A program made the translations under genes and the position numbers. The notes beneath the pieces are model-generated. The model did no database searches. It was not told the origin of the DNA and saw nothing but the letters and a program-made list of their open reading frames with translations. This document shows, one piece after another, positions 1 through 14,629 of a stretch of 23,199 nucleotides of DNA. This DNA is from a virus. Each line of letters opens with the position of its first letter. The stretch's first letter is position 1. The stretch spans positions 1-23,199 of the IMG/VR virus record IMGVR_UViG_3300032240_000423, one strand, 5' to 3'.

Positions 1-9
1 GGGCTTTGG

Positions 10-38
10 TTGACACTAGAGCCCTTTTGCGTTATAAT
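10..38 (+). promoter_or_regulatory. Early sigma70-type promoter P1
   Basis: TTGACA at 10-15, a 17-nt spacer and TATAAT at 33-38. A CA-rich leader and CAGGAG follow, then the gene at 66. Positions 1-7 can pair with 18-24 (GGGCTTT / AGAGCCC, one G:U), which places the -35 box inside a hairpin loop. Confidence 0.85.
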
Positions 39-65
39 ACACACATACACTAAACAGGAGCGACC

Positions 66-335
66 ATGTTAGACATTAACAAAATTGTAAAGACATACAG
101 CGGCCGGATCGGCTGTATGTGCGGATGCCTCGGCAAGTACAGCTACACAGCAGACGGCGCCAAAAACTACAGCCCTGGCTACGACGTCACAGACAGCGTT
201 AACGAGCGCAGTGTCAAAATCATTGCTAAAAAGGTTCTTAGCAACCCTAATGTCAAGTTTGAAGGCGATTATGCGTTTGTAGAGGATCGTGATCGTAATA
301 AAATACAAATGGTTGTCTTTAAGGAGAAGGTATGA
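66..335 (+). CDS. Small conserved-looking phage protein with CMCGC cysteine cluster
   Basis: This 89-residue protein has no function I can assign. Near its N-terminus (residues about 13-24) it has SGRIGCMCGCLGKY, a cysteine- and glycine-rich stretch that could bind a metal. The rest is mixed and charged, with no membrane segment. The ATG at 66 is chosen because CAGGAG lies just upstream and promoter P1 ends 27 nt before it. Its stop overlaps the next start by 4 nt, so the two genes are probably translationally coupled. It is the first gene of the early block visible here. Confidence 0.75.
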   Translation: MLDINKIVKTYSGRIGCMCGCLGKYSYTADGAKNYSPGYDVTDSVNERSVKIIAKKVLSNPNVKFEGDYAFVEDRDRNKIQMVVFKEKV

Positions 336-568
336 TCACAGCAGACAAGCTAGCCCTACTGACCAACATGCCTGCGGCCATGCTCACAATGGGCATCCAG
401 CAGGCCGGCTACAAAGACGACAAGTTCACAGCGTCCAAGTTCCTGGGCATCACCAACGGTGGGCAATTCTGCTACACTGTGGTCTACCCAGTTGATGGAG
501 GTACGGACTCCTGTAAGGTTTTTGTAAGCTATGACCCTACAAAAGATCAGGTTACTGTTGACTACTAG
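332..568 (+). CDS. Hypothetical small early protein
   Basis: This 78-residue protein has no recognised domain. The start at 332 overlaps the previous gene in an ATGA arrangement and has AAGGAG upstream, within that gene's last codons. The sequence is soluble-looking, with an alanine/methionine-rich first third and a beta-rich second half (FCYTVVYPV, CKVFVSY). It shares promoter P1 with the gene at 66. The next promoter's -35 box begins 2 nt after its stop, so intergenic space is almost nil. Confidence 0.7.
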   Translation: MITADKLALLTNMPAAMLTMGIQQAGYKDDKFTASKFLGITNGGQFCYTVVYPVDGGTDSCKVFVSYDPTKDQVTVDY

Positions 569-569
569 G

Positions 570-598
570 TTGACAGTTTGGTAAATTTGCGTTATAAT
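570..598 (+). promoter_or_regulatory. Early sigma70-type promoter P2
   Basis: TTGACA at 570-575, a 17-nt spacer and TATAAT at 593-598. The leader ACATACATCGCAACAAGGAG matches that of the promoter at 3303. I see no strong inverted repeat around this -35. Confidence 0.85.
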
Positions 599-623
599 AC
601 ATACATCGCAACAAGGAGCTGAT

Positions 624-866
624 ATGAAAGTTAAAGACCTTATCGAGCAGTTGGGCTACATGGACCAGGACGCTGACGTTCACTTTGCTTACGGCTATGG
701 CGATTACTGGCGCACCACAGTAGCCCCAAAGGTTACTCAAGTGTTTGAGGGTGCCGTAGTGTACAGCGACTACCATCGCATGGACAAGCTGGCTGACGAG
801 GACTTTGAAGACGAAGAGCCCGGCAACCCGGACGAGAACGCTCGCCGAGTTGTTGTCATTGAATAA
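624..866 (+). CDS. Small acidic early protein, MKVKDLI family
   Basis: This 80-residue protein starts at 624 with AAGGAG at a good distance. The N-terminus (MKVKDLIEQLGYMDQDADVHF) has the same layout as the protein at 4870: a helix LIxxL, then a D-rich turn, then a V-containing beta strand. The two are therefore probably paralogs. Such LIE-L-DPDA-V proteins are frequent in phage genomes but their role is not known to me. The C-terminal half is strongly acidic (ADEDFEDEEP), a feature seen in DNA-mimic inhibitors, although that link is only speculation. Its TAA stop lies inside the left arm of the hairpin at the next promoter. Confidence 0.75.
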   Translation: MKVKDLIEQLGYMDQDADVHFAYGYGDYWRTTVAPKVTQVFEGAVVYSDYHRMDKLADEDFEDEEPGNPDENARRVVVIE

Positions 867-875
867 CCCTAGAGG

Positions 876-904
876 TTGACGGGTTATCCAAAAGGTGTTA
901 TAAT
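876..904 (+). promoter_or_regulatory. Early sigma70-type promoter P3
   Basis: TTGACG at 876-881, a 17-nt spacer and TATAAT at 899-904. The stretch 871-907 is repeated identically at the promoter at 4802. ATAACCC (863-869) and GGGTTAT (881-887) form a perfect 7-bp inverted repeat that brackets the -35. Confidence 0.85.
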
Positions 905-930
905 ACAGACTTAGCAACAAAGGAGTTCCA

Positions 931-1116
931 ATGAAGATCACTATCACTGTTCCGAAACACGCTATCAAATCAGTTAAAGAGTATGTCAAAGAGGTATCGG
1001 GTAAAAAGCCTTCCAAAGAAGAATTGGCCAAGTTCTTTGAGCAGGACATTGTGGGTTTTTACAGCGATACCTTTGAAGAAGGTATTGAAGGTGCTGTGGA
1101 AAACTATTTCGGTTGA
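931..1116 (+). CDS. Hypothetical 61-residue early protein
   Basis: This short protein is lysine- and glutamate-rich. It begins with a beta strand (MKITITVPKHA) followed by amphipathic helices (KSVKEYVKEVSGKKPSKEE), and there is no known domain. AAAGGAG precedes the ATG. Its stop codon TGA (1114-1116) lies inside the TTGACA -35 box of the next promoter, an economical overlap of coding and regulatory sequence. Confidence 0.7.
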   Translation: MKITITVPKHAIKSVKEYVKEVSGKKPSKEELAKFFEQDIVGFYSDTFEEGIEGAVENYFG

Positions 1117-1141
1117 CAGGGTTGGTAAAACCTGCTATAAT
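1113..1141 (+). promoter_or_regulatory. Early sigma70-type promoter P4
   Basis: TTGACA at 1113-1118, a 17-nt spacer and TATAAT at 1136-1141, followed by the leader and AGGAGC before 1177. The -35 contains the preceding gene's stop codon. Confidence 0.85.
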
Positions 1142-1176
1142 TAACACTTACACAGACAACACACTAGGAGCACACA

Positions 1177-1653
1177 ATGGGAACACGAAGCACTATCGCA
1201 CTTGAGTTCGCAGACGGCACAGTACAGCAAGTCTACTGCCACTGGGACGGCTACTTGGATCACAACGGCAAGATCTTGTTGGAACACTACAGCGATCCGT
1301 TCAAACTGCGCGACTTGATTGATCAAGGCGGCATCAGCTCGTTGGGCATTGAGATCGGTGAGAAGCACGCCTTTAGCCAATTTGAACTGCGGGCTGAAGA
1401 AGTCCAAGCATACAAAGAACTGACCGAGAACTGGACTACATTCTACACACGCGATCGTGGCGAGGATTTGAGTATTGAGAAATACAAAGACATCCAGGAC
1501 TATCGCGAGAATGTCTACGGCGAGGAGTACGACTATATCCTGTGCCAGCGAGAAGGCAAAGCTCAGTGGTTCGTGCGTTCTTACAGAACAGACGGCAACT
1601 GGGTAGCATTGGAAGTAGCATTTGAAGAACAAGCAATCGCAGAGGAAAACTGA
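1177..1653 (+). CDS. Conserved-type phage protein beginning MGTRSTIALE
   Basis: This 158-residue protein has a very recognisable N-terminus: MGTRSTIALEFADG, followed by VYCHWDGYLDHNG (about residues 19-31). I associate this pattern with a family of uncharacterised proteins in phages and some bacteria. It is rich in aromatic and acidic residues, soluble, and lacks membrane segments or ATP-binding motifs. AGGAGC before the ATG and promoter P4 fix the start. The next gene follows after 1 nt, so the two form a unit. The function is unknown. Confidence 0.8.
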   Translation: MGTRSTIALEFADGTVQQVYCHWDGYLDHNGKILLEHYSDPFKLRDLIDQGGISSLGIEIGEKHAFSQFELRAEEVQAYKELTENWTTFYTRDRGEDLSIEKYKDIQDYRENVYGEEYDYILCQREGKAQWFVRSYRTDGNWVALEVAFEEQAIAEEN

Positions 1654-1654
1654 A

Positions 1655-1837
1655 ATGAGCGCAATTAAAGATCTGGCCTACGACATTGAGTCGTTGTACA
1701 TCGAAGGCATGAGTGCCAAGGCTATTGCGGCAGAACTGAACTGCCCAATCGACGTGGTCTTGAGCTTTTTGGAAGATATTGGTGTGGCAGATTCGCCACA
1801 GGAGGAGTACGACCCATACGCAACTATCAACTCCTAA
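1655..1837 (+). CDS. Small protein with HTH-like segment
   Basis: This 60-residue protein starts at the ATG at 1655, directly after the previous stop. GAGGAAAA lies upstream inside the previous gene. An upstream in-frame ATG at 1622 was rejected because it sits deep inside the preceding gene. Residues about 18-40 (GMSAKAIAAELNCPIDVVLSF) read like a helix-turn-helix of the kind that begins 'G-S-xx-IA-ELN', and an acidic tail follows. It may be a small DNA-binding regulator, but this rests on the pattern alone. It is co-transcribed with the gene at 1177. Confidence 0.7.
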   Translation: MSAIKDLAYDIESLYIEGMSAKAIAAELNCPIDVVLSFLEDIGVADSPQEEYDPYATINS

Positions 1838-1848
1838 TCAAAAAACGG

Positions 1849-1877
1849 TTGACAGCGGACCGAAACCGTTGTATAAT
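1849..1877 (+). promoter_or_regulatory. Early sigma70-type promoter P5 with long leader
   Basis: TTGACA at 1849-1854, a 17-nt spacer and TATAAT at 1872-1877. AACGGTT (1844-1850) and AACCGTT (1864-1870) form a 7-bp inverted repeat across the -35 and spacer. The leader to 1936 is longer than at the other promoters and differs in sequence. Confidence 0.85.
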
Positions 1878-1883
1878 TAACTT

Positions 1884-1943
1884 ATGGAAAGCAATAGTGC
1901 CTACCATATAACAACACACAGAGAAGAGGTATTTTATGTCTAA
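1884..1943 (+). CDS. Possible leaderless upstream peptide (19 aa)
   Basis: An ATG at 1884 lies 7 nt after the -10 box of P5, where transcription should begin. It opens a frame of 19 codons (MESNSAYHITTHREEVFYV) that ends at 1941-1943, 8 nt inside the gene at 1936. It has no ribosome binding site, so it could be translated only as a leaderless message. It may be a leader peptide affecting the H1-like gene, or it may be chance. Confidence 0.2.
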   Translation: MESNSAYHITTHREEVFYV

Positions 1944-2367
1944 AACTTTTAAATTCGCAGGTGTTTCTAAACGTGCAGGTTCTTTCAAAGCCCGCTTTGC
2001 CAATGATCAGATGCGTGTCAAAGTGCTCGCTAAGACTGGCAGTTCCGACATTGATTTGATTGAGCTCAAAGAGCCCATGACCAAGTTGGATGCTGTTGCG
2101 TTCCTGTTGAAGATCAACTTCGACAATGGTAATGCTTTGGTCCGTGAGGCATTGGAAGCATATCAGTCCAAGCACACTGAGACTACCAAGTCTACCGCGG
2201 CTCCTAAGGCTAAGACCAAGGCTGCTCCTAAAGCTAAGAAGTCTACGCCGTCTATGGACGCTATCAAGGCCAAGGTGGCTGCTTCTAAGAAGACAGCTCC
2301 TAAGTCTACAGTGACCAAGGCAGAGGTTGCCGCACAGTTGGCTGACTTGGAAGACGCACCGTTCTAA
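1936..2367 (+). CDS. Histone-H1-like basic DNA-binding protein
   Basis: This 143-residue protein has two parts. Residues 1-80 are a compact domain (SKRAGSFKARFANDQ, DIDLIELKEPMTKLDAVAFLL). Residues about 83-128 form a low-complexity tail of K, A, P, S and T with repeated KAAPKAK / AAPKAK / SKKTAPKS units, like the C-terminal tail of histone H1 or bacterial H1-like proteins. The last 15 residues are acidic. Such tails bind DNA without sequence specificity, so I infer a nucleoid-binding or DNA-compacting role, or silencing of host DNA. It has its own promoter with a distinctive long leader and GAAGAGG before the start, which suggests stronger or different control than the other early genes. Confidence 0.75.
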   Translation: MSKTFKFAGVSKRAGSFKARFANDQMRVKVLAKTGSSDIDLIELKEPMTKLDAVAFLLKINFDNGNALVREALEAYQSKHTETTKSTAAPKAKTKAAPKAKKSTPSMDAIKAKVAASKKTAPKSTVTKAEVAAQLADLEDAPF

Positions 2368-2368
2368 T

Positions 2369-2417
2369 CCCCACCGGGCAGGCGAGTGCCGTAAGACCCG
2401 GAAACCGTACTGCGGGG
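2369..2417 (+). other. Structured intergenic RNA element
   Basis: Between the stop at 2367 and the start at 2440 the sequence can fold into nested helices. These are CCCC 2369-2372 with GGGG 2414-2417, CCGGG 2374-2378 with CCCGG 2397-2401, and GGC 2381-2383 with GCC 2388-2390. No U-run follows, so it is not a classic terminator. It may be a processing or stability element between the H1-like gene and the membrane protein gene. I do not recognise an RNA family. Confidence 0.4.
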
Positions 2418-2439
2418 TATTCACTTTCTAGGAGCACTT

Positions 2440-2622
2440 ATGAATAAGATTCTTATGTTTATTTTGATTATCGCAATCCTGATAATCATTGGTCCGTTCC
2501 TGTCCATCTGGGCATTGAACACATTGTTTCCAGTGTTGGCTATTCCTTACACCTTTGAGACCTGGGCCGCTATCATCCTGATCAAAGGATTGTTGACTGT
2601 TAGTGTCAACAAGAAGGATTGA
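2440..2622 (+). CDS. Small membrane protein, two transmembrane segments
   Basis: This 60-residue protein is dominated by hydrophobic residues: MNKILMFILIIAILIIIGPFLSIWAL (first membrane helix, about 4-26) and FETWAAIILIKGLLTVSV (second, about 39-56), with a short charged tail. AGGAGC precedes the ATG. No holin is proven: the size and topology would fit one, but its place in an early block argues against lysis. A role at the host membrane, such as superinfection exclusion, is only an inference. It has no promoter of its own in the usual style and is probably read through from P5. Confidence 0.7.
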   Translation: MNKILMFILIIAILIIIGPFLSIWALNTLFPVLAIPYTFETWAAIILIKGLLTVSVNKKD

Positions 2623-2623
2623 T

Positions 2624-2842
2624 ATGAGTAGACTAGAGTACCATGGCCGTCCCTATGTGGCCTTCGATGCTAGCAACAAAGACCATCGTAGGTACTTTGC
2701 TGAATTTCAAAGGTCAAGGACGTGGGGTCACTGCCCGGTTCGATTCATTATACATGACGATCACGGAGACTTAGTTACTCTGATTCAGCGTCGTCTTATT
2801 GATCATTATGTTTTTAGAGAGTTTGGCAAAGTTGAGGCTTGA
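2624..2842 (+). CDS. Hypothetical early protein, 72 aa
   Basis: The ATG at 2624 comes 1 nt after the previous stop, with AAGGATT upstream. An in-frame start 7 codons earlier lies inside the membrane protein gene and lacks support. The protein is basic and aromatic-rich (HRRYFAEFQRSRTWGHCPVRF, residues about 22-42) with no known motif. Its TGA stop falls within the TTGACC -35 of the following promoter. The function is unknown. Confidence 0.65.
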   Translation: MSRLEYHGRPYVAFDASNKDHRRYFAEFQRSRTWGHCPVRFIIHDDHGDLVTLIQRRLIDHYVFREFGKVEA

Positions 2843-2867
2843 CCTTGCTTGTGTATACTGTTAAACT
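2839..2867 (+). promoter_or_regulatory. Divergent-looking sigma70 promoter with inverted repeat
   Basis: TTGACC at 2839-2844, a 17-nt spacer and TAAACT at 2862-2867. A 7-nt inverted repeat, ATACTGT (2856-2862) and ACAGTAT (2884-2890), overlaps the -10 region and could be an operator. A second TATAAA lies at 2888. This promoter differs from the repeated early module. Confidence 0.5.
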
Positions 2868-2911
2868 AGTATCAACTGTTCACACAGTATAAAACAAAAA
2901 GGAAAACTAAA

Positions 2912-3184
2912 ATGGTTTATTCAATCAACAAGGGTACAAAGACCCACAAGTTGTTCACCGCAATGAAGAACGGTGAGAAGCTATCTGCTTCCGAAGCACA
3001 GAAGCGTTTCGGTGTTAAGAACATTGCTGCAGAAGCAAGCCGCATCCGTCAAGCTGGTTTCGCAGTTTATGCGAACACTCGCAAGGCTGGTAACGGTGTT
3101 CAAGTTACCGAGTACGAAATTGGCCAACCAAGCCGCAAGTTGATTGCCGCTGGTTACAAGGCTATGGCACTTGGCCTAGTCTAA
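2912..3184 (+). CDS. Small HTH-like phage protein
   Basis: This 90-residue protein is basic and helix-rich. Residues about 9-50 (THKLFTAMKNGEKLSASEAQKRFG, then NIAAEASRIRQAGFAVYANTRK) read as a winged-helix-type fold: a helix, a second helix starting with SASEA, a recognition helix AAEASRIRQ and a beta wing. The C-terminus (KLIAAGYKAMALGLV) is another helix. I infer DNA binding, probably a regulator. AAAAAGGAAAAC precedes the ATG, and the gene has its own atypical promoter and a strong hairpin after it. It is thus an isolated unit that may be expressed at a different time from its neighbours. Confidence 0.75.
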   Translation: MVYSINKGTKTHKLFTAMKNGEKLSASEAQKRFGVKNIAAEASRIRQAGFAVYANTRKAGNGVQVTEYEIGQPSRKLIAAGYKAMALGLV

Positions 3185-3201
3185 GAGTTCGCTCCGAAAG
3201 T

Positions 3202-3275
3202 CCTGGGTGGGGTAGTGTCCCCCAGGCACCCCCTAGAACCCCTCCACGCTGTGAAGCAGTTGAGGGGTTCGTCTT
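3202..3275 (+). terminator. Tandem hairpins, probable terminator
   Basis: Two hairpins follow the gene ending at 3184. The first is CCTGGG 3202-3207 with CCCAGG 3221-3226. The second is GAACCCCTC 3236-3244 with GAGGGGTTC 3262-3270, 9 perfect base pairs, followed by GTCTTTGTTG. The trailing T-run is weak, but stem strength and position favour termination. Confidence 0.6.
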
Positions 3276-3302
3276 TGTTGCTAAAATACAACACCTGAGA
3301 GG

Positions 3303-3331
3303 TTGACAAGTTGGTAAAACCTTGTTATAAT
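3303..3331 (+). promoter_or_regulatory. Early sigma70-type promoter P7
   Basis: TTGACA at 3303-3308, a 17-nt spacer and TATAAT at 3326-3331. The CA-rich leader and AAGGAGC follow, then the ATG at 3358. Confidence 0.85.
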
Positions 3332-3357
3332 ACATACATCGCAACAAGGAGCAGACC

Positions 3358-3471
3358 ATGTTAAAATTGATAGGTTGGTGTACTGTAGTTTGGGCCATGT
3401 TCTATTTTGGTATCGCCCAGCTGATCGCAATCTACACCATAGTCGTTGTCTCTTTCATCGCAGGAGTTTAA
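3358..3471 (+). CDS. Small single-pass membrane peptide (37 aa)
   Basis: An ATG at 3358, 6 nt after AAGGAGCAGACC begins to end, opens a 37-codon frame: MLKLIGWCTVVWAMFYFGIA, then QLIAIYTIVVVSFIAGV. Nearly all of it is hydrophobic, so it is one or two short membrane helices. The perfect promoter and ribosome site in front of it, and the next gene starting right after it, make it a real gene despite its size. It may be a host-membrane effector, but nothing in the sequence shows what it does. Confidence 0.7.
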   Translation: MLKLIGWCTVVWAMFYFGIAQLIAIYTIVVVSFIAGV

Positions 3472-3472
3472 T

Positions 3473-3697
3473 ATGGGATACAAGGTTCTCGCAGACAAAT
3501 TCGAAACAGACCAGATGCGTACCAAGTACGGCCCGCGTCAGGGACTTGAAGGTCCGTTCATGTTCGCAGGCGGCCGTGTTCTGTACTACGATGTCAAAGA
3601 GGGTCAGTACTATGACCCTGCCACAGACTTCTACGTCGAGCGTTCAGAGATGGATCTGATCAACCAAAACTTAATCAACATGATTGCGAGGGCCTAA
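3473..3697 (+). CDS. Hypothetical early protein, 74 aa
   Basis: The ATG at 3473 has CAGGAGTTT in front and starts 1 nt after the membrane peptide ends, so I prefer it to an upstream in-frame start at 3446 that lies inside that gene. The product (MGYKVLADKFETDQMRTKYG..., with FMFAGGRVLYYDVKEGQYYDP in the middle) is soluble with several beta-strand-like stretches. The family is unknown. Its stop overlaps the next start by 1 nt. Confidence 0.7.
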   Translation: MGYKVLADKFETDQMRTKYGPRQGLEGPFMFAGGRVLYYDVKEGQYYDPATDFYVERSEMDLINQNLINMIARA

Positions 3698-3891
3698 TGG
3701 TAGTACTACAAGAGACCACAGAGTGGCCGGAAGGCCAAGCCGGCAACCACATCTACATCTTTAAGACCAAGCCCGCAGGTCGTACTGGCGAGGCCATTGC
3801 CTACATTCCTCAAGGGCAGACCAAGGTACAGAAGTTTAAGAACCCTTACAAACTTGACCTGCGTGGCCGTACCTTTGAGGAAGTCAAATGA
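3697..3891 (+). CDS. Hypothetical early protein, 64 aa
   Basis: A TAATG overlap with the preceding gene suggests translational coupling. The protein is basic and short (KTKPAGRTGEAIAYIPQGQTKVQKF, residues about 24-48), with no membrane segment or known motif. There is an ATGA overlap with the next gene. It is part of the four-gene unit driven by P7. Confidence 0.65.
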   Translation: MVVLQETTEWPEGQAGNHIYIFKTKPAGRTGEAIAYIPQGQTKVQKFKNPYKLDLRGRTFEEVK

Positions 3892-4082
3892 CCGAACTCC
3901 GCATCGTTGACAAGGATGTCAATCCTTTAGAGTTGATGGTCGTACACGATGACCTTAAGAGCCGTGGTGTCCGTCATGCTACCATCTACAAAGGCAACAA
4001 CTGTATCTGGGTCAGCTACAACCTGATTGATGCCTACTACATCTTTAAGAACTTTGAGCTGGTAGACATACAGTACGATTGA
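3888..4082 (+). CDS. Hypothetical early protein, 64 aa
   Basis: It starts in an ATGA overlap with the previous gene and ends the P7 unit. It alternates hydrophobic strands (ATIYKGNNCIWVSYNLI) and helices, and looks like a small alpha/beta fold. I do not recognise a family. A 7-bp hairpin with a GAAA loop follows its stop almost at once. Confidence 0.65.
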   Translation: MTELRIVDKDVNPLELMVVHDDLKSRGVRHATIYKGNNCIWVSYNLIDAYYIFKNFELVDIQYD

Positions 4083-4083
4083 G

Positions 4084-4101
4084 TGTTGTAGAAATACAAC
4101 A
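4084..4101 (+). terminator. GAAA-tetraloop hairpin at end of P7 unit
   Basis: TGTTGTA (4084-4090), loop GAAA, TACAACA (4095-4101): a perfect 7-bp stem with a stable GNRA-type loop, 2 nt after a stop codon. No T-run follows, so it may protect the mRNA 3' end or slow polymerase rather than terminate by itself. Confidence 0.4.
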
Positions 4102-4129
4102 ACCCGGCACTCCGCAATAGCCCTACAGG

Positions 4130-4158
4130 TTGACAGGGCATTGGTTTTACCTTATAAT
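4130..4158 (+). promoter_or_regulatory. Early sigma70-type promoter P8
   Basis: TTGACA at 4130-4135, a 17-nt spacer and TATAAT at 4153-4158. CAAT-A-GCCCT (4115-4124) pairs with AGGGCATTG (4135-4143), 9 bp with one bulged A, placing the -35 mostly in the loop. Confidence 0.85.
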
Positions 4159-4184
4159 ACATACATAGACACTAAGGAGCAAAG

Positions 4185-4424
4185 ATGATTGATACAGTTT
4201 CATTTTACGAAGTACATGGCAAGACATACGAACAGAAACACGGCAACCCTTTTGATCGCGGTTCCGCTGACTCATACTACGGGCGTCGTCGTTGCCCACA
4301 CAAGGGCGGTGTAGGCGGCAACTCCGGCCCTCGTATCGAACAGCTGGATGACAACGAGCTGGAAGCCTACCACGCAGGCTACGATTGGAACGAGCAGTTC
4401 GGCGACAAAAAGAATTACGATTGA
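4185..4424 (+). CDS. Hypothetical early protein, 79 aa
   Basis: This is a single gene between two early promoters, with AAGGAGC before the ATG. It is polar and glycine-rich: NPFDRGSADSYYGRRR (about 21-36), then a CPHKGG stretch and an acidic end. The DRGSADSYYGR motif is distinctive, and I think it occurs in other phages as an unannotated short family. It has no membrane segments. The function is unknown. Confidence 0.7.
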   Translation: MIDTVSFYEVHGKTYEQKHGNPFDRGSADSYYGRRRCPHKGGVGGNSGPRIEQLDDNELEAYHAGYDWNEQFGDKKNYD

Positions 4425-4426
4425 GG

Positions 4427-4455
4427 TTGACCTTTTGGTAAAACCTTGCTATAAT
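4427..4455 (+). promoter_or_regulatory. Early sigma70-type promoter P9
   Basis: TTGACC at 4427-4432, a 17-nt spacer and TATAAT at 4450-4455. It starts 2 nt after the preceding stop and leads to AAGGAGC and the ATG at 4484. Confidence 0.85.
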
Positions 4456-4483
4456 ACAGACATACACTAACAAGGAGCACACA

Positions 4484-4792
4484 ATGGCTAAACTCTTAAT
4501 TTCCACCCAAGTCTACGAAAACTACGGCGCCCACGATTGGGAAGGCGTTGGCGAGTGCCCTCAGTACTGGAAAGCCAAAGGCGGTTCAGACTATGTGGTC
4601 AAGAAGTTCCGTGGCGATGCTACCACAGCGGTCATGTGCCTCCGCACACAGATCGAGTGTGACAACCAACACATCCGCGAGTCTATCATTGACTTCCGCG
4701 TAGTGCCTGACAACTACCTCACAGAGTACGAACAGGCTCAGTTAGATTACGAAGGCGCGATCGCATACAGTCCCAAGGAACTTGCCTGGTAA
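4484..4792 (+). CDS. Conserved-type hypothetical phage protein, 102 aa
   Basis: The protein begins MAKLLISTQVYENYGAHDW and continues with a Trp- and Gly-rich stretch (GVGECPQYWKAKGG), then a helical C-terminal part. The pattern of I-S-T-Q-V-Y-E-N-Y-G-A-H is one I associate with uncharacterised phage proteins. It is soluble with no known catalytic motif. It stands alone with its own promoter, and its stop codon lies in the left arm of the hairpin at the next promoter. Confidence 0.7.
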   Translation: MAKLLISTQVYENYGAHDWEGVGECPQYWKAKGGSDYVVKKFRGDATTAVMCLRTQIECDNQHIRESIIDFRVVPDNYLTEYEQAQLDYEGAIAYSPKELAW

Positions 4793-4801
4793 CCCGAGAG
4801 G

Positions 4802-4830
4802 TTGACGGGTTATCCAAAAGGTGTTATAAT
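4802..4830 (+). promoter_or_regulatory. Early sigma70-type promoter P10
   Basis: TTGACG at 4802-4807, a 17-nt spacer and TATAAT at 4825-4830. It is a near copy of the promoter at 876. TAACCC (4790-4795) pairs with GGGTTA (4807-4812), and a G:U and a G-C pair extend the stem. Confidence 0.85.
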
Positions 4831-4869
4831 ACATACATGAACAAGATACTAACACACAAGGAACACAAA

Positions 4870-5049
4870 ATGAAACCCTCACTGACAGTCGCAGAGTTGA
4901 TCGCAATCTTGAGCCGGTTGGATGGCAACATGCCTGTTGAGATTGGTATGAACCAAGAATACCAACGCGGCATCGATGCTGAAGACATCCGTGTCGATTC
5001 GTTTGATTTCCACAACAACGGCGAGCCGTTTGTGTTTATCGGCGATTGA
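4870..5049 (+). CDS. Small early protein, paralog-like to the 624 gene
   Basis: The ATG at 4870 is chosen because AAGGA lies before it. An in-frame ATG at 4837 sits just where transcription should start and would add 11 residues only if read leaderless. The 59-residue product (MKPSLTVAELIAILSRLDGN, then MPVEIGMN) shows the same helix, aspartate turn and V-strand order as the 624 product, suggesting an ancient duplication. A VFIGD end follows. The function is unknown. Confidence 0.7.
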   Translation: MKPSLTVAELIAILSRLDGNMPVEIGMNQEYQRGIDAEDIRVDSFDFHNNGEPFVFIGD

Positions 5050-5058
5050 CCCTACAGG

Positions 5059-5087
5059 TTGACAGGTTATTCATTCTTTGTTATAAT
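5059..5087 (+). promoter_or_regulatory. Early sigma70-type promoter P11
   Basis: TTGACA at 5059-5064, a 17-nt spacer and TATAAT at 5082-5087, then a leader with AAGGAGC before 5113. A weak 5-bp pairing (TGACC / GGTTA) spans the -35. Confidence 0.85.
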
Positions 5088-5112
5088 ACACACATACACT
5101 AAGGAGCATATT

Positions 5113-5295
5113 ATGAAACAGATCGGATCAGTAGCAGTTTTTCTCAGCCTCATTTGCTTTATGTTCATCGCAGGTGGCGTTGAGCATCTACCACCTAATC
5201 CCAGCATCAACGACATTGTCAACTTGATCGGTGCTTCGGCAGTGGCATTGGCCATGGGCCTGTTGGGTATCAGCATCATCAATGAAGGAGAATAA
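5113..5295 (+). CDS. Small membrane protein, two transmembrane segments
   Basis: The ATG at 5113 follows AAGGAGC, and any longer frame would begin inside the promoter. The 60-residue product has two hydrophobic helices: IGSVAVFLSLICFMFIAGGV (about 3-22) and IVNLIGASAVALAMGLLGI (about 36-54), joined by a proline-rich turn (LPPNPS). It is a likely inner-membrane protein of the early phase. Candidates are exclusion or signalling, but nothing in the sequence decides. The next gene starts after 1 nt. Confidence 0.7.
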   Translation: MKQIGSVAVFLSLICFMFIAGGVEHLPPNPSINDIVNLIGASAVALAMGLLGISIINEGE

Positions 5296-5296
5296 C

Positions 5297-5563
5297 ATGA
5301 CTGTGGAATTTACTATCGACGGACTCAACCCTCGCCAACAGGTCCTGGCAGATATGATCTGGGCCTTTGAAGACTTTCGGGATGTGAAAAAGTTCATCCG
5401 TGCTTTGCCCACACGGGCCCTACAGGATGAAGCCCACTCCATTGTAGAGCTGATGAAGATGGCGGCACTTGAACAGTGCTACGAAGGCATCCAAGACAAA
5501 CAACTTGAACCTCAATGGCCTTTTGATGCCAAGGCCCTGCTTGACAAGATTGCCAAACGATAG
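5297..5563 (+). CDS. Hypothetical helical protein, 88 aa
   Basis: It begins at the ATG at 5297, with GGAG at the end of the preceding gene as its ribosome site. It is mostly helical (LADMIWAFEDFRDVKKFIRA, then LQDEAHSIVELMKMAALEQCY) and ends in a basic tail. The promoter for the next gene has its -35 box (5541-5546) inside the last codons of this gene. No domain is recognised. Confidence 0.7.
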   Translation: MTVEFTIDGLNPRQQVLADMIWAFEDFRDVKKFIRALPTRALQDEAHSIVELMKMAALEQCYEGIQDKQLEPQWPFDAKALLDKIAKR

Positions 5564-5569
5564 TACAAT
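5541..5569 (+). promoter_or_regulatory. Early sigma70-type promoter P12, embedded in a coding end
   Basis: TTGACA at 5541-5546, a 17-nt spacer and TACAAT at 5564-5569. The -35 and spacer lie within the end of the 5297 gene; only the -10 lies outside it. The leader is short and A-rich, with AAGGAGC before 5597. Confidence 0.75.
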
Positions 5570-5596
5570 ACACACTTACACACAAAAGGAGCTAGC

Positions 5597-5986
5597 ATGT
5601 ATAATTGGGATGAACTTATCCGCCCCATGGAGTTGCAGGATGCCATCAACTTCCTCGGAGCCAGCCGCAAAGCCTACAACAAGAACTCGGGCGAGCCTGC
5701 CCTGAACTTCCGTGAGACCTTTGACATGATTGAAGAGTGCTCGTGCAATGTGGGCACCAACAAGGACTTTGCCATGATGAAGGCCATCAAGGGCTACATT
5801 GAAGAAGAGCTAGCCCAGCGTGAAGCAGAGCTGTGGAAGCAACTAGCCAAGCAGGTTGAAGTCAAGACTGTCAACAAGATGCTCAAGGACGACATGTTGT
5901 TTGAGGACAGTGACGACTACCAGATGACCGATGAAGAAGCCGCAGAGTACTACGGTGATGAATACGAGAGCGACGAAGACTATTAA
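5597..5986 (+). CDS. Acidic helical early protein, 129 aa
   Basis: The protein is largely helical (IKGYIEEELAQREAELWKQL, residues about 66-85, likely a short coiled coil). It ends in a strongly acidic tail (DSDDYQ, DEEAAEYYGDEYESDEDY). Acidic tails of this kind occur in DNA-mimic or chaperone-like phage proteins, but this is not evidence of such a role here. AAGGAGC fixes the start. It is a single-gene unit. Confidence 0.75.
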   Translation: MYNWDELIRPMELQDAINFLGASRKAYNKNSGEPALNFRETFDMIEECSCNVGTNKDFAMMKAIKGYIEEELAQREAELWKQLAKQVEVKTVNKMLKDDMLFEDSDDYQMTDEEAAEYYGDEYESDEDY

Positions 5987-5995
5987 CCCTACAGG

Positions 5996-6024
5996 TTGAC
6001 AGGGCTCCGGCCCTGTGCTACAAT
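5996..6024 (+). promoter_or_regulatory. Early sigma70-type promoter P13 with palindromic spacer
   Basis: TTGACA at 5996-6001, a 17-nt spacer and TACAAT at 6019-6024. ACAGGGC and GCCCTGT face each other across TCCG, starting in the -35 and filling most of the spacer. The same element recurs at 6629. Confidence 0.8.
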
Positions 6025-6051
6025 GCACACATACACTAACAAGGAGCCGAT

Positions 6052-6189
6052 ATGAAACAAGTAGAATCACAATCCAGCACCGGTGGCACTATCACTGAGT
6101 TCTTTGACAAGGACGGCGTTCGCGTCAAAGTGGTACATACCGCAGGCAAAGCCTACACAGGCAAGATTGCACAGCAAGAAGCCAAATAA
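6052..6189 (+). CDS. Very small early protein, 45 aa
   Basis: An ATG at 6052 with AAGGAGC in front opens 45 codons ending at 6189. The product is polar: an N-terminal serine/threonine-rich stretch (VESQSSTGGTITEFF), then a strand-turn-strand (GVRVKVVHTAGKAYTGKI). Perfect promoter and ribosome site on one side, and a new promoter on the other, argue that it is expressed. No family is recognised. Confidence 0.7.
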   Translation: MKQVESQSSTGGTITEFFDKDGVRVKVVHTAGKAYTGKIAQQEAK

Positions 6190-6198
6190 CCCTAGAGG

Positions 6199-6227
6199 TT
6201 GACAGGTTATTGGTTTTACCGTATAAT
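6199..6227 (+). promoter_or_regulatory. Early sigma70-type promoter P14
   Basis: TTGACA at 6199-6204, a 17-nt spacer and TATAAT at 6222-6227. AATAACC (6185-6191) and GGTTATT (6205-6211) form a perfect 7-bp inverted repeat with the -35 in its loop. Confidence 0.85.
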
Positions 6228-6259
6228 ACATACATCAACAACGCACTAAGGAGCACACT

Positions 6260-6619
6260 ATGTTCGCACTAGCAACCAAAGAAGCCTTCAACGCAGAAGC
6301 CGTTCAAGCCGTACTCAACGAAGCAGAGATCCAGGCCCGTACAGCCGCCAAAGCATTCTACAATGCTCACGGTGATCGTGACGCTTGTGGCTTTGCTTGG
6401 GTCAGCGTTTGGGGCGTTCGCAGTAACAGCCGTTTGGGCAAGACCCTGGCCAGCTACGGCTTCCGCAAGAGCTACGACGGCAGTCTTCAGCTGTGGAACC
6501 CCAGCAAGGCAGGCGTACAATCAATCAGCATTCTGGAAGCCGGCGCTGACGCTTACGCAAAGGTTCTGCGTGAGAAGTTGGGCTTGGAGCGATGCTACAG
6601 CGGTTCACGCATGGATTAA
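6260..6619 (+). CDS. Conserved-type hypothetical phage protein, 119 aa
   Basis: It begins with a helical, alanine-rich half (ATKEAFNAEAVQAVLNEAEI) and continues with a Trp- and Gly-containing core (GDRDACGFAWVSVWGVRSNS). This GFAWV(S/x)V motif followed by SRLGKTL is distinctive and I believe it marks a phage family of unknown function. It is soluble. AAGGAGC and P14 fix the start. Confidence 0.75.
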   Translation: MFALATKEAFNAEAVQAVLNEAEIQARTAAKAFYNAHGDRDACGFAWVSVWGVRSNSRLGKTLASYGFRKSYDGSLQLWNPSKAGVQSISILEAGADAYAKVLREKLGLERCYSGSRMD

Positions 6620-6625
6620 ATATAG

Positions 6626-6654
6626 TAGACAGGGCTCCGGCCCTGTGCTATAAT
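6626..6654 (+). promoter_or_regulatory. Promoter P15 for the AAA+ operon, with palindromic spacer
   Basis: TAGACA (weaker -35) at 6626-6631, a 17-nt spacer and TATAAT at 6649-6654. The spacer carries the same ACAGGGC-TCCG-GCCCTGT element as P13. The leader differs from the other modules: it lacks AAGGAGC and has only AGAAAGA before the ATG at 6689. Confidence 0.8.
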
Positions 6655-6688
6655 ACACACTTCAGCAACATTTTATAGAAAGACTAAC

Positions 6689-7567
6689 ATGGCAACATCC
6701 AAAGCCCGCAAGCCCAGCAAGGCCACCGTTACTAGTAACGTCATTGAGTTTGACACGGAAGCCATTGCCAAGAAAGAGTTGGCCATCGCTAAAGAAAGCG
6801 ATACCAGCATCCTGACTCGCTTGACTGAGCGTTTCGACATTCTCACAGAGATGACCAAAGCCGTTAAACGTGGCGACATCCGTGCTATGATTGTGTCGGG
6901 TCCTCCTGGCGTGGGCAAGAGCCACAACGTCGAAGCAGTCTTACAAAAGGACGGCTTGTTTGACATCATCGGCGAGCGCAAGCCTAGGTTCGAAGTGGTC
7001 AAGGGTGCCATGTCTAGCATTGGCTTGTACTCAAAGCTCTACGAGTACAGCGATGAGAAGTCTGTGCTTGTGTTTGACGACTGTGACGACATCCTACAAG
7101 AAGAGCTGAGCCTGAACATCCTTAAGGGTGCTTTGGATTCGGGTCAGCGCCGTTTCATCTCTTGGAACACTGACAGCCGTATCCTTCGCAGTGAAGGCAT
7201 TCCGGATCGCTTCGAGTTCAAGGGCGCGGCTATTTTCATTACCAACATCAAGTTCGAGCACGTTCGCAGTAAGAAGCTTCGTAGCCACTTGGACGCATTG
7301 GAAAGCCGTTGCCACTACATGGACTTGGAAATGGACACCAATCGCGAGAAGCTCCTTTGGATCCGCCAGATCACCAATGCTGGCATGCTGGACCGCTTTG
7401 AGTTCGATGACATCCAAAAGGACGAAGTTCTGGAGTTCATCAACACTAACCAGGATCGACTTCGTGAGCTGAGCCTGCGTATGGTGCTGAAAGTAGCACA
7501 ACTCCGCAAAGCCATGCCTGCTGTTTGGCAAGCCTATGCTCGTCAAACTTGTATGAAGCGAGCATGA
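6689..7567 (+). CDS. AAA+ family ATPase
   Basis: This 292-residue protein has a clear P-loop ATPase core. Walker A is GPPGVGKS at residues 71-78, Walker B is VLVFDDCDD at 126-134, and a sensor-1-like asparagine lies in FITNIK (about 183-188). Arginines follow in HVRSKKLRSH, where an arginine finger could sit. The first 60 residues are charged and poorly structured. AAA+ proteins of this kind remodel proteins or nucleic acids, usually as hexamers. The client is unknown and no nuclease or protease domain is attached. Its stop overlaps the next start (ATGA), so it is coupled to a membrane protein and a zinc-binding protein. This three-gene unit looks more like a functional module than its neighbours. 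Confidence 0.85.
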   Translation: MATSKARKPSKATVTSNVIEFDTEAIAKKELAIAKESDTSILTRLTERFDILTEMTKAVKRGDIRAMIVSGPPGVGKSHNVEAVLQKDGLFDIIGERKPRFEVVKGAMSSIGLYSKLYEYSDEKSVLVFDDCDDILQEELSLNILKGALDSGQRRFISWNTDSRILRSEGIPDRFEFKGAAIFITNIKFEHVRSKKLRSHLDALESRCHYMDLEMDTNREKLLWIRQITNAGMLDRFEFDDIQKDEVLEFINTNQDRLRELSLRMVLKVAQLRKAMPAVWQAYARQTCMKRA

Positions 7568-9289: not shown

Positions 9290-10825
9290 CTATCTCAACG
9301 CTGGATGAAGCTGTCTGCCTACCTCAGTGTGCTCGGGTCTTAACAATGTGTTGGTACGCATTCTAGTAATAAACTCAGTGTGTGGCATGGCGTCTTTTAA
9401 CACTTTGTTAATAAACTCCTGCTCTTTGTTAAAATTGTCAAGGTAGCCCGGGGGCAACACTGACTCCTGTGTGGCAATCACTGAATCAAGCCAACCGTAC
9501 TCTAACATAGGGTATATGAACACACCATAGCCCACGCTGCCTTCTCCGGCATACCAATCGTGTACATCGGGCCAGCGATGTTGTATCAGCTGTTGAATAT
9601 ACTCTACTTGCGGTCTTAAGGGTAGACTCTGTTGATGCCGCCAAAAGTCTGTGTCATTACGGCCACTGCGATAGTGTACCTGTATAAGATCGGCACAGTT
9701 ATCCACGCCCTGATTGACATTTTTATTCAACATATCTGTGACCTGTCCTTGGGGTGTAACACCCTGGGGACGTAGCCATCTGCTGGTTAAATTAGCTAAG
9801 TGTCCTAGAGTGCCGTGTATGCTGGTTGCTTGTAGGGGTTCAAGGAAACTGCCCGCTAGTCCTATGCTGGCCACATTCTTACAAAACGGCTGCTCCACAC
9901 GGCCCGGATCAAATTTAATGATTTTAATGGGCTCAATAGCTTCACCCCAGTGCTGTTCAAGCTCTTGCTGTACTTGTTCGTCAGTGATAAAACGACTGTC
10001 ATAGACATAACCACAGCCCAGACGCTCTTGCGTGGGTATGTTCCACTGCCATCCTGATTTCATGGCATAGGCTTCTGTCAAGGGACTGATTGTAGTCCTG
10101 TGGGGTTTGATAAAAGGCATGGCTCTGTTACAGGTAAGAAAGTCACTGTAACTGTGCCATCCAGCACCAACTTCTTGGCCAAGTACACGGGCAAATCCGC
10201 TGGCATCCACCCATACATCTGCTTTGAGCATTCTACCATTGGTTAACTTTACAGCGGTGATATAGCCACGTTCATCTTTGAAACACTGCTTGACTTCGCT
10301 GTCGATACAGGGTATATTGTATTCAGCTACAGCTTTTTTCTTTAGTGTTTGTCCCACATGGTGTCCATCAAAATGATAGGCATTGGTTGGTAGAACTCGT
10401 AGGTTATCTCGATGTATGGTGCTGAGATCTCTGGATCCCAGTGCTCCATTAATTGTGCTCAGGGCCGCTTTGTTTCGTCCATACTTTTGACAAACATGCA
10501 TCAATGAATAATCCCAGGCATCATTGATAGCGGCATGAGTGTTATCTATTGGGGCTATAAAACTGGTACCGTCGCCCTTCCAATTATGGAATCTTATGCC
10601 TAGCTTTTGAGTGCCTTTACTGCCTTCCATGAACTCGTAATGGTCGAACTTAAATGCTTTGTGTATGACATCGGCAAAGATGCCCGTGGTTCCTTCTCCG
10701 GCTCCAATGATGCCTATCTTGGAACTTTCTACCACAGTGATTTCATGTGAGTTGGGTTGTTGGGTGGCAATCCAAAGAGCAGCCAACCAACCTGCTGTTC
10801 CACCGCCAATGATACATATTTTCAT
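9290..10825 (-). CDS. Flavin-dependent tryptophan halogenase family protein
   Basis: This 511-residue protein has the full family layout. The FAD-binding GGGTAGW is at residues 7-13, GEGT at 43-46, the catalytic-type lysine in QKLGIRF at K74, the signature WQWNIP at 259-264, and EPLQATSIH at 329-337. The family uses FADH2, oxygen and chloride or bromide to make a hypohalous intermediate that is passed through a tunnel to the lysine, then to tryptophan or an indole-like substrate. At EPLQAT many members have Glu where this has Gln, so regiochemistry or substrate may differ. A flavin reductase partner is not in the window. No ribosome site is evident. GATAATTA lies close to the ATG, similar to the late-type boxes elsewhere here. 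Confidence 0.9.
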   Translation of the reverse strand: MKICIIGGGTAGWLAALWIATQQPNSHEITVVESSKIGIIGAGEGTTGIFADVIHKAFKFDHYEFMEGSKGTQKLGIRFHNWKGDGTSFIAPIDNTHAAINDAWDYSLMHVCQKYGRNKAALSTINGALGSRDLSTIHRDNLRVLPTNAYHFDGHHVGQTLKKKAVAEYNIPCIDSEVKQCFKDERGYITAVKLTNGRMLKADVWVDASGFARVLGQEVGAGWHSYSDFLTCNRAMPFIKPHRTTISPLTEAYAMKSGWQWNIPTQERLGCGYVYDSRFITDEQVQQELEQHWGEAIEPIKIIKFDPGRVEQPFCKNVASIGLAGSFLEPLQATSIHGTLGHLANLTSRWLRPQGVTPQGQVTDMLNKNVNQGVDNCADLIQVHYRSGRNDTDFWRHQQSLPLRPQVEYIQQLIQHRWPDVHDWYAGEGSVGYGVFIYPMLEYGWLDSVIATQESVLPPGYLDNFNKEQEFINKVLKDAMPHTEFITRMRTNTLLRPEHTEVGRQLHPALR

Positions 10826-12587: not shown

Positions 12588-13142
12588 ATGCCATCAAAAT
12601 CTTACTTAGGTCATTTATTGGCCGCTAACCCTAGCAATCCGCGAGATTCACTGAGCAATACCGTTATATTGGTATGCTCTAATACCCCTAGACTAACTTT
12701 TGGATTACAGGTTAATCAACCTCTTCCTGACCTAACTGTAGGAGAAATTATATCAGGATTAGGATTATACCACGAATCTGAACAACCTATATATCATGGC
12801 GGAAACTTAAAGACTGAAAAAATACACGTGGTACATAGTACGGATTGGATGGGAATGACTAGCCAAAATATTACTCCAGACTTGGCCATTACCAGCGATA
12901 TTAGTGTACTTACTGCAATGTGTGCCGGAGAAGGTCCTACACAATTTAGAGCATGTGCTGGGTTCTGGGCATGGGAACCAGGTACCTTAGAAAGACAAAT
13001 GGATCCTAAATCGACAAATGTAAATCATCGCTGGGAAAGTGTGCCAGCAACTCCTGAGCTGATATTTGATCAACCTAGTCAGGATCACTGGCACAATATT
13101 TTAGCTGCCTGTGTACAGCATCAAACTTCGATGTTATTTTAA
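12588..13142 (+). CDS. AlgH/YqgE (UPF0301) family protein
   Basis: This 184-residue protein fits the bacterial AlgH/YqgE family over most of its length. It has the start pattern of a leading block followed by TVILVCSNT, then IYHGGNLKTEKIHVVHSTDW (the family's GGP...vlH block), DLAITSDISVLTAM, then the CAGFWAWEPGTLERQM block that corresponds to GysgWgpGQLE, and a final WESVPATPELIFD matching the W...lF end. The bacterial proteins are often called transcriptional regulators but have no proven activity. A phage copy is unusual. It has its own late-type promoter and probably a leaderless mRNA. Its stop overlaps the helicase stop. Confidence 0.8.
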   Translation: MPSKSYLGHLLAANPSNPRDSLSNTVILVCSNTPRLTFGLQVNQPLPDLTVGEIISGLGLYHESEQPIYHGGNLKTEKIHVVHSTDWMGMTSQNITPDLAITSDISVLTAMCAGEGPTQFRACAGFWAWEPGTLERQMDPKSTNVNHRWESVPATPELIFDQPSQDHWHNILAACVQHQTSMLF

Positions 13143-14629
13143 TCTTTTTCAGGATTTAGATTGGGCATATTGTTTACCCATTTTCTAATCAGCGGTGCGC
13201 CTACTTCCTGTTTGGGCTTCTTTAGATTAATTCCTTGAGTAGGATCAACATCTCTAATCTCTCCTGTTTCGGGATCAGTGGTAGTGCTTACTGTACTTGT
13301 ACGTTTTAGGTTACCATATATTCCGCTACTTGAATTATTAGGTTTGCTGTTGCTATTTCCGCCGTTGTAATTGCTGTCGTCGTCTTCGCCTAAGTCGCTG
13401 ATACGCAAAGTATCTACGTTAAATTCTAAATCAACTTTTTGTCCAACACCACTACTAGAGCGAGTCTTCATAAACTGGATTTGATAGCGTCCACGTTCCT
13501 TCATAGCACGACTTGTAAAGATACCTATGACATTATCTGCTGTCATAATCTTACTCAAACCGCCCGAAATATGACTGTGATCAAACTCAATTTCCTCAAC
13601 AGCAGAGCGGTTCAACTGCGATGCTGTAACAGTAATACATTGTGTTTCCATAGCCAAGTTTCTGATCTCTTCTGACACATATTTGTCTTTTACGAACAGA
13701 TCACTAGGACTGACCTTCACAGATAAAGGCATCATCAAATCGAGGTAATCTATGAGAATTACGTCGGGTTTTACGCCTTTTTTGACCTGATATTCCTTCA
13801 AATAGGCTCGAATATCGTTACAATTTTTACCTGAGGGCATATACTTAACTTGTAGGTTTCCTGACTTCTTGCCCAACATTTTAACCTTTAATTCCACATC
13901 GTCGATGTTCTTAAAAACCTCACGAGTTGTAATTCCAGTCATCATAGAATCCAAACGCATAGACACTAAACCTTCCGAAAGTTCGAATGTTAGATATAAA
14001 ACATTCAATCCTTGTAAGGCCCAGTTAACGCCAAGATTAGCCAAGAATAAACTTTTGCCGCCACCAGAACCAGCACAAAAAATATTAAGCTCTCCGCGAT
14101 TAAATCCACCGTAAAGTTTCTTGTCAATGCTAGGCCACCCTGTAGATATTTGTCCATTTCCGTCCTTTAGTTTGCTTAATCGAGCTCTCGGGTCTTCAAA
14201 GTAATCAGTACCCATATCTTTGTTTAAACTGATCTGAATAGCATCTTTGATCAACTTTTCAACAGGACCATAGTCGCCTGCTTCTAGCAAATCACTAGAT
14301 TCAATGATAGCCCTCTCTAGTCCTTTATGACGACTAAAGTTTTCAAACTCATCCATTAACCATTCGTAATTTTCTTTTGGCAATGCTACTGGATTAAAGT
14401 CACTATTAGTCGAAGCATTAACAATACTCGATTCTGGCATAACCTTGTAGTCATCTACATATTTGTTAATAAATTCAGCTGCCGTTTGTAGTTTTTGATC
14501 GAAGTTTAATGGATCAAAAATATTCTGACATCTAATAAATGTTTCTGAATCACTGAGAAACATCTCAATGTACAGCTTCTGCATCTCAAAGTTATAATTA
14601 GGTTTTGGTAGTTTTTCTTTTTTATTCAT
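13139..14629 (-). CDS. 41: Replicative DNA helicase, gp41/DnaB type
   Basis: This 496-residue protein is a RecA-fold hexameric helicase. Walker A is AGSGGGKS at 186-193, Walker B is DVILIDYLDLM at 289-299, and ASQLNR at 336-341 holds the conserved glutamine and the region before the arginine finger. Residues 1-140 form a helical N-terminal domain, and the last 90 residues are low-complexity (N/S/G-rich), ending in a conserved-looking tail. It unwinds DNA ahead of the leading polymerase and works with the primase. The length is close to T4 gp41 (475). Its start overlaps the primase end by 8 nt, so the two primosome proteins are translationally linked. Confidence 0.92.
   Translation of the reverse strand: MNKKEKLPKPNYNFEMQKLYIEMFLSDSETFIRCQNIFDPLNFDQKLQTAAEFINKYVDDYKVMPESSIVNASTNSDFNPVALPKENYEWLMDEFENFSRHKGLERAIIESSDLLEAGDYGPVEKLIKDAIQISLNKDMGTDYFEDPRARLSKLKDGNGQISTGWPSIDKKLYGGFNRGELNIFCAGSGGGKSLFLANLGVNWALQGLNVLYLTFELSEGLVSMRLDSMMTGITTREVFKNIDDVELKVKMLGKKSGNLQVKYMPSGKNCNDIRAYLKEYQVKKGVKPDVILIDYLDLMMPLSVKVSPSDLFVKDKYVSEEIRNLAMETQCITVTASQLNRSAVEEIEFDHSHISGGLSKIMTADNVIGIFTSRAMKERGRYQIQFMKTRSSSGVGQKVDLEFNVDTLRISDLGEDDDSNYNGGNSNSKPNNSSSGIYGNLKRTSTVSTTTDPETGEIRDVDPTQGINLKKPKQEVGAPLIRKWVNNMPNLNPEKD

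Follow-up and report, generated by a model that had tools for sequence, protein, structure and literature searches.

The DNA analysed here (the window, 23,199 nt) is a 23.2-kb virus record with T4-type replication genes; family scans located a DnaB-type helicase and a primase-like gene (Table 1), and a helicase C-terminus lies at the right end. On the minus strand, the window also carries a gene for a tryptophan-halogenase-family flavoprotein (9290–10825; PF04820, E 9e-88) and a run of ORFs of the sugar-nucleotide type (17433–19740), with a PfkB-type kinase and, by eye, cytidylyltransferase-like and epimerase-like products. The subject of this report is gene A, a small ORF whose exact coordinates had been given in the preliminary description of this DNA and which relatives in IMG/VR confirm as a real gene. 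The strong promoter proposed in the same description is present as well, as a full 12/12 match to TTGACA-17-TATAAT that ends 58 nt before the start codon. A promoter scoring at least 10/12 was found within 150 nt of all 64 distinct close members of the gene A family (33 at 12, 24 at 11 and 7 at 10). Such promoters are common in these loci, where 467 of 1129 ORFs of at least 100 aa score at least 10/12, and positions 1–6000 of the window contain 22 promoter-like sites (6.9 ± 2.9 in shuffles). About a dozen plus-strand genes at positions 1–6700 have their own near-consensus promoter, followed by a short hairpin-free leader of the ACATACAT...AAGGAGC type. The promoter type suggests that gene A is expressed early, and its small protein is probably abundant.

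The surroundings of gene A are partly conserved. Two upstream ORFs and one downstream neighbour recur on the same strand in about half of the 140 loci searched with tblastn (Table 1). Gene B, the syntenic partner, had a same-strand match in 65/140 loci and lay at most 2.5 kb downstream of gene A in 58 of the 125 loci that extend far enough; in three marine-type loci that were read (see below for this group), it either starts 12 nt downstream of gene A or overlaps that gene's 3' end. A relative of gene B adjoins an S21-like gene in Pelagibacter phage HTVC008M, in which gene A was not found. Like gene A, gene B has a promoter and a leader hairpin of its own. The gene B hairpin of the window folds at −3.6 kcal/mol (z −1.0). 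Across 55 distinct leaders of gene B, 43 reach −3 kcal/mol or below, a few of the 55 being mis-set starts inside marine-type gene A.

Table 1. Position of gene A, its parts and neighbouring features in the window
Feature	Position	Strand	Basis and remarks
Upstream ORF, phrog_1987	1177–1653	+	tblastn, 75/140 loci, same strand
Upstream ORF, weak HTH	1655–1837	+	tblastn, 70/140 loci, same strand
Sigma-70-type promoter TTGACA-17-TATAAT	1849–1877	+	12/12 match
5'-terminal RNA hairpin UAUGG..GCA-AUAG-UGC..CCAUA	1883–1908	+	Fold −6.3 kcal/mol; family statistics
Shine-Dalgarno-like AAGAGG	1924–1929	+	Sequence and fold; ~15 nt 3' of hairpin, outside it
Gene A	1936–2367	+	143 aa, ATG start; relatives in IMG/VR
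N-terminal domain, residues 1–80	1936–2175	+	AlphaFold2; topology β-β-α-β-α-α
Disordered K/A/P-rich basic linker, residues 81–137	2176–2346	+	pLDDT 50–61; composition, charge
Motif P[ST]MDAIKAK in linker, residues 105–113	2248–2274	+	Recurrent in alignment; P105
C-terminal tip LEDAPF, residues 138–143	2347–2364	+	Strict pattern, 72/118 C-termini
Conserved neighbour ORF, unknown function	2624–2842	+	tblastn, 79/140 loci, same strand; median 59 nt from gene A
Gene B promoter TTGACC-17-TAAACT and leader hairpin (2875–2888)	2839–2888	+	Promoter scan, fold
Gene B, winged-helix HTH_39 / phrog_4973	2912–3184	+	Syntenic partner of gene A
DnaB-type helicase	13139–14629		Family scan
Primase-like	14622–15608		Family scan

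Searches of IMG/VR yielded 19 relatives with the single window sequence as query, 185 with an alignment (one scan, 80 kept) and 99 with a distant member (80 kept). ORFs taken from 162 locus entries gave 118 distinct complete gene A proteins, window included, which fall into several classes. The main branch (72/118) combines a tail rich in lysine, alanine and proline (K/A/P) with a strict acidic-hydrophobic tip at the very C-terminus. In two proteins (L027 and L124), the tip motif is followed by a short extension and is thus internal. A further 21 have a tail without the strict tip; eight of these end in ALM/ALV (EPALM, GEALM, GEALV, SALM), and three are near-misses (EEASF, EEASF and EDAAF). 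Eleven homologues consist of the domain only (83–93 aa), and 12 are of a type with ~110 aa and low K/A/P content, which we call marine-type as a working label for the group L174–L195 with no habitat implied. Gene A was single in 20 of 22 contigs tested and present twice in two; two copies of the domain in one phage contig are seen in G025 (L166) and G006 (L057).

The preliminary description had suggested looking for the N-terminal domain in other phages, and the domain is indeed carried by many metagenomic phage contigs, while isolated phages yielded none. tblastn against 50,697 phage records found no homologue with the window protein (E ≤ 1) or with a marine-type query (E ≤ 10), and three further members gave only weak matches (best E 8, 4 and 0.2). 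Two of the weak matches, when examined, proved to lie inside larger ORFs. A gene A profile found no match in five isolate phages and matched 22/22 contigs that had yielded loci. Bacterial genome contigs scanned with the gene A alignment contained no relative. The gene A family belongs to uncultured T4-like phages.

AlphaFold2 modelling bears out the layout of a compact domain joined to a tail that had been proposed for this protein. In a model of the full protein, pLDDT is ~88 for residues 1–80 and falls to the values in Table 1 beyond; with 111 sequences, the N-terminal 80–84 residues are predicted with high confidence (pLDDT 89.4, pTM 0.74). A search of the PDB returned no fold match at E ≤ 0.001, and Foldseek and VIA-align matches were all weak (best VIA-align Z 2.8); those to p56, T7 Gp2 and MbtH-like structures (Z 2–2.8) were taken as noise. 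Six BFVD models matched at E ≤ 0.001, all of them uncharacterised proteins of uncultured phages. No convincing model for the family was found in Pfam, PHROG or NCBIfam: the best match was phrog_20829 (unknown function; E 0.0058) with one domain-only member, and none of 17 members scanned matched a PHROG below E 0.02. Judged from these comparisons and from the model, the N-terminal domain appears to be a new domain family, which also occurs alone. Five of its 16 invariant or near-invariant residues in the 111-row alignment are lysine or arginine (K18, R20, R27, K29, K50), which makes nucleic-acid binding by the gene A protein plausible.

The tail consists of a variable linker and a conserved tip. 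The tail of the window protein has the composition noted in the preliminary description (K/A/P 56%, net charge +10 without the last eight residues), and the median charge in tip-class members is +8 without the tip. The linker is poorly conserved and varies in length and sequence; a recurrent element is the P[ST]MDAIKAK motif, whose P105 is present in 56 of 61 alignment rows with a residue at that column. The best-kept part of the tail is the tip, which the preliminary description did not mention. It carries a charge of about −2 to −3 behind the basic linker and follows the pattern [DE][DEN]xP[FY]. Of the 72 proteins that have it, 68 show Glu at −5, 64 Asp at −4 and 66 Ala at −3, and the last residue is Phe in 56 and Tyr in 16. 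In 64 aligned rows, E139 reaches 3.6 bits and A141 3.9 bits, whereas most linker columns lie between 1.5 and 3. In L086 the tail is neutral and not of the K/A/P type, yet the tip is kept (LDDQPY); L130 and L142 end in MDENIPF. LEDAPF, in which acidic residues precede a C-terminal x-Pro-Phe, resembles the tip of bacterial single-stranded DNA-binding protein (SSB).

These features bear on the label of a histone-H1-like protein under which gene A was first described. No Hc1 or linker-histone Pfam model matched the window protein at E ≤ 1 (the only match was DUF4148 at E 0.48), and the seven families that matched among 17 members included none that is histone-like (best E 0.04). Membership of H1/Hc1 is therefore rejected by sequence, and the label reflects the composition of the linker only. 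Eukaryotic H1 contains a globular winged-helix domain; the gene A model is β-β-α-β-α-α, and its Foldseek and VIA-align matches, as given above, are all weak. The preliminary description had named homologues without the basic tail as an observation that would speak against it; such are the 11 domain-only and 12 marine-type proteins among the 118, and the tail of L086 is neutral. A nucleoid-type architectural protein, its basic tail coating or condensing host or phage DNA, would still account for the charged K/A/P tail of tail-and-tip members and for the conserved K/R residues of the domain; the strong promoter and hairpin leader fit an abundant product of this kind, and phage precedents have been described, namely a histone-H1-like protein of moraphages (PMC12619734) and T4 MotB, an early nonspecific DNA-binding protein with the nucleoid as a possible target (PMC6070864, PMC7827196). 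We nevertheless regard this explanation as somewhat unlikely. Tailless homologues keep the hairpin leader (domain-only) or the gene B neighbour (marine-type), no histone family matches, and the most conserved part of the tail is acidic-hydrophobic, whereas a pure DNA-condensing tail needs no such tip.

The tip motif is rare at protein ends. Among 4771 distinct ORFs of at least 60 aa from 100 loci and the window, SSB-like ends were found only in gene A and in a 76-aa ORF. This ORF, which ends in EFDDVPF, lies at 1618–1848 of locus L208 on the minus strand (phage G008), and the same ORF starts at 4904 in L012. In the whole phage G008, a terminal motif occurs in 2/251 ORFs (0.02 expected); within the last 70 residues, the motif occurs in 3/251 ORFs (gene A, the gp32 SSB and the 76-aa ORF), which is little above the 0.98 expected by chance, so that the weight rests on the two terminal motifs. 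In 180 of the 194 kb of phage G003, the only ORF of 195 with the motif is gene A itself.

The gp32 SSB (phrog_1192) of the same phages carries a [DE][DE]xP[FW] motif inside its tail in 11 of the 14 tails read (loci L101–L114 out of 15 gp32 hits, L115 being left out; PAPW in L112 was left uncounted). These internal motifs are of the DDxPF/DAPW type. Among four gp32 tails of isolate phages, one has an internal motif (DDLPW in Pseudomonas phage Paride, L221). Co-variation of the gene A tip with the gp32 motif was not seen: four ALM/ALV-ending members belong to phages with a motif-bearing gp32, and in the phage of L043 the tip is present and gp32 lacks the motif. The likeness of the tip may point either to the hub of proteins around bacterial SSB or to a phage-encoded reader of gp32 tails.

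In E. coli, the SSB tip DDDIPF docks in basic-rimmed pockets of many repair and replication proteins; the pockets described use the terminal carboxylate, which in DnaG is bound by an arginine (PMC5872125). By analogy, the acidic stretch and x-Pro-Phe/Tyr end of gene A could dock in pockets that read SSB tips, those of host SSB partners or of phage readers of gp32 tails. The motif is internal in gp32, L027 and L124, while the known pockets use the carboxylate, and host SSB partners may therefore not be the readers. Docking is also disfavoured by the eight ALM/ALV ends, by the Tyr ends (16/72) and by the failure of the gp32 motif to track the tip. Alternatively, the acidic tip may control the binding of nucleic acid through fold-back onto the basic domain or linker, the protein being an RNA or DNA chaperone. 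A basic linker with an acidic tip is the layout described for Hfq, in which the tip regulates nucleic-acid binding by folding back and for which SSB is named as another example (PMC5606850). A purely electrostatic tip, however, leaves the fixed Pro-Phe/Tyr end unexplained, and we consider fold-back unlikely.

The leader of gene A is the second distinctive feature of the locus. The preliminary description had called it distinct, and its fold of −6.3 kcal/mol indeed stands apart from those of the 16 other strong window promoters that were folded, as none of the 13 on the plus strand is below −3.3 kcal/mol. By itself, the hairpin of the window does not reach significance (z −0.89; 37/200 shuffles fold as well), and it is convincing only through family comparison. 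Among promoters of these loci that score at least 11/12, a 5' fold of −5 kcal/mol or below was found for 80/103 family leaders and for 80/1501 others. The first 36 nt of 101 non-marine leaders (113 distinct leaders minus 12 marine-type; L166, with a weak promoter, was also dropped) have a median z of −2.6, with 76/101 below −2. With the transcription start placed from the promoter, the stem-loop sits at the mRNA 5' end or only a few nt from it: of 91 leaders that fold at −4 kcal/mol or below, 71 have their first paired base 5–9 nt downstream of the −10 hexamer. The 12 marine-type leaders lack a clear hairpin, as do, for example, L043/L044, L061/L063, L084, L092, L099 and L159. In domain-only members, 10/11 have a hairpin (−8.8 kcal/mol or below), the exception being L092; as these members have no tip, leader and tip are separate traits. 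An N-terminal extension of the protein translated from a leaderless start was rejected: some hairpins contain ATG, but of 81 leaders with an ATG near the start, only 15 have it in frame with an open reading frame through to gene A. An Rfam scan of positions 1800–3300 returned a chance match only (E 0.86), and no tRNA was found.

Comparison of the leaders, which are related in sequence so that the hairpin, covariation and palindrome counts are not independent events, supports a conserved structure. RNAalifold predicted no pair in a mixed alignment of 59 leaders because the stems fall in two registers. When the leaders were split by their own fold (27 + 20 rows used, 12 left out), the two register classes contained 21 + 16 cells changed on both sides, compared with 6.7 + 5.0 in shuffled data (0/500 as high) and at most 8 + 5 in slid controls. 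Splitting by own fold favours structure, and the slid controls and the G-U test therefore weigh more. In a palindrome search blind to G-U pairs, 63/98 leaders (11.1 in shuffles) showed Watson-Crick matches at 6–7 of 7 positions; of the 87 mismatches, 38 were G.T/T.G (15% in shuffles) and 15 were A.C/C.A. This excess of G-U suggests that the mRNA strand is the one under selection. It bears on the possibility that the inverted repeat serves a dimeric repressor as its DNA operator and is not an RNA structure: the repeat sits at the usual operator position, and coevolution with a repressor would also change both arms together. Such an operator is, however, at odds with the G.T/T.G excess and, by a modest margin, with the strand that folds better (the mRNA strand in 62/101 leaders, the other strand in 33/101), and we think it very improbable.

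The hairpin could also be an RNA operator to which the gene A or gene B protein binds to control its own synthesis, as it accompanies both genes and its loops lean to AUAG/AUGG/xGG (AUAG being the commonest, with 13), with stems that are variable (101 leaders have 70 distinct 5' arms). With 40 different loops and a Shine-Dalgarno sequence that lies outside the hairpin, at a median of 18 nt after it in the family, this seems quite improbable. By analogy with known 5' stem-loops, we infer instead that the conserved structure protects the mRNA: a hairpin at the 5' end would most likely shield the transcript from 5'-dependent decay and thereby allow much protein to be made.

In our leading explanation, which we hold tentatively, the gene A product is an accessory protein of phage DNA metabolism that is made early and probably in large amounts. 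The folded domain and flexible basic linker would keep the protein attached to nucleic acid or to a phage complex, its SSB-like tip would dock on SSB partners or on phage readers of the gp32 tail, and its mRNA would be protected by the hairpin. Docking would let it, at an early stage of infection, bring these partners to phage DNA or compete for them. Overall, it resembles a histone less than it does a protein that plugs into the machinery of DNA replication and repair. A bolder form of this explanation, possible but doubtful, is that a widespread, undescribed family with a new domain that also occurs alone uses a hairpin-protected early mRNA to deliver the SSB tip at high dose, and so hijacks or blocks the host SSB-partner hub or steers that of gp32. 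A literature search judged by title found no paper describing a phage mimic of the SSB tip.

A stronger finding than the H1 label is thus what appears to be a new domain family, found on many phage contigs and without a convincing family model, whose main branch carries an SSB-like tip on a basic linker behind a conserved RNA hairpin. If the docking explanation is true, the SSB docking tip exists in phages on free-standing carrier proteins, and with these one could ask directly which SSB partners a phage requires, or has to neutralise, at an early stage of infection. The paired hairpin leaders offer a case in which to test whether phages use mRNA protection, or leader control, to set gene dosage.

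Compared with known systems, gene A resembles histone-H1-like/Hc1 proteins (PF07432), including those of moraphages (PMC12619734), in its lysine-, alanine- and proline-rich tail and differs in the lack of a sequence match, in the conserved acidic tip and in its many tailless homologues. Like T4 MotB (PMC6070864, PMC7827196), it is a small, presumably early protein of T4-like phages with the nucleoid as a possible target, although the PHROG scan above gives it no convincing relative; MotB was compared by description only. The 5'-terminal stem-loops that can stabilise mRNAs such as ompA and papA (according to reference titles in PMC3997798) share with the gene A leader a hairpin at about the first transcribed base and a free Shine-Dalgarno sequence, whereas the phage-borne hairpins lie on two neighbouring genes, their stems are fully diverged among relatives and their effect is predicted. 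With the gp32 SSB of the same phages, gene A shares the tail motif, which is internal in gp32 and terminal in gene A, and no similarity was found between the folded domains. With bacterial SSB, it shares a disordered, variable linker and a highly conserved acidic x-Pro-Phe end; it differs in having mostly Ala instead of Ile at −3, in the Tyr ends, in its strongly basic linker and in the absence of a recognised SSB/OB-fold domain. No SSB family matched the N-terminal domain in Pfam, PHROG or NCBIfam, and the only SSB-named match, to phrog_1192 (E 0.045), covers the tail (residues 75–140).
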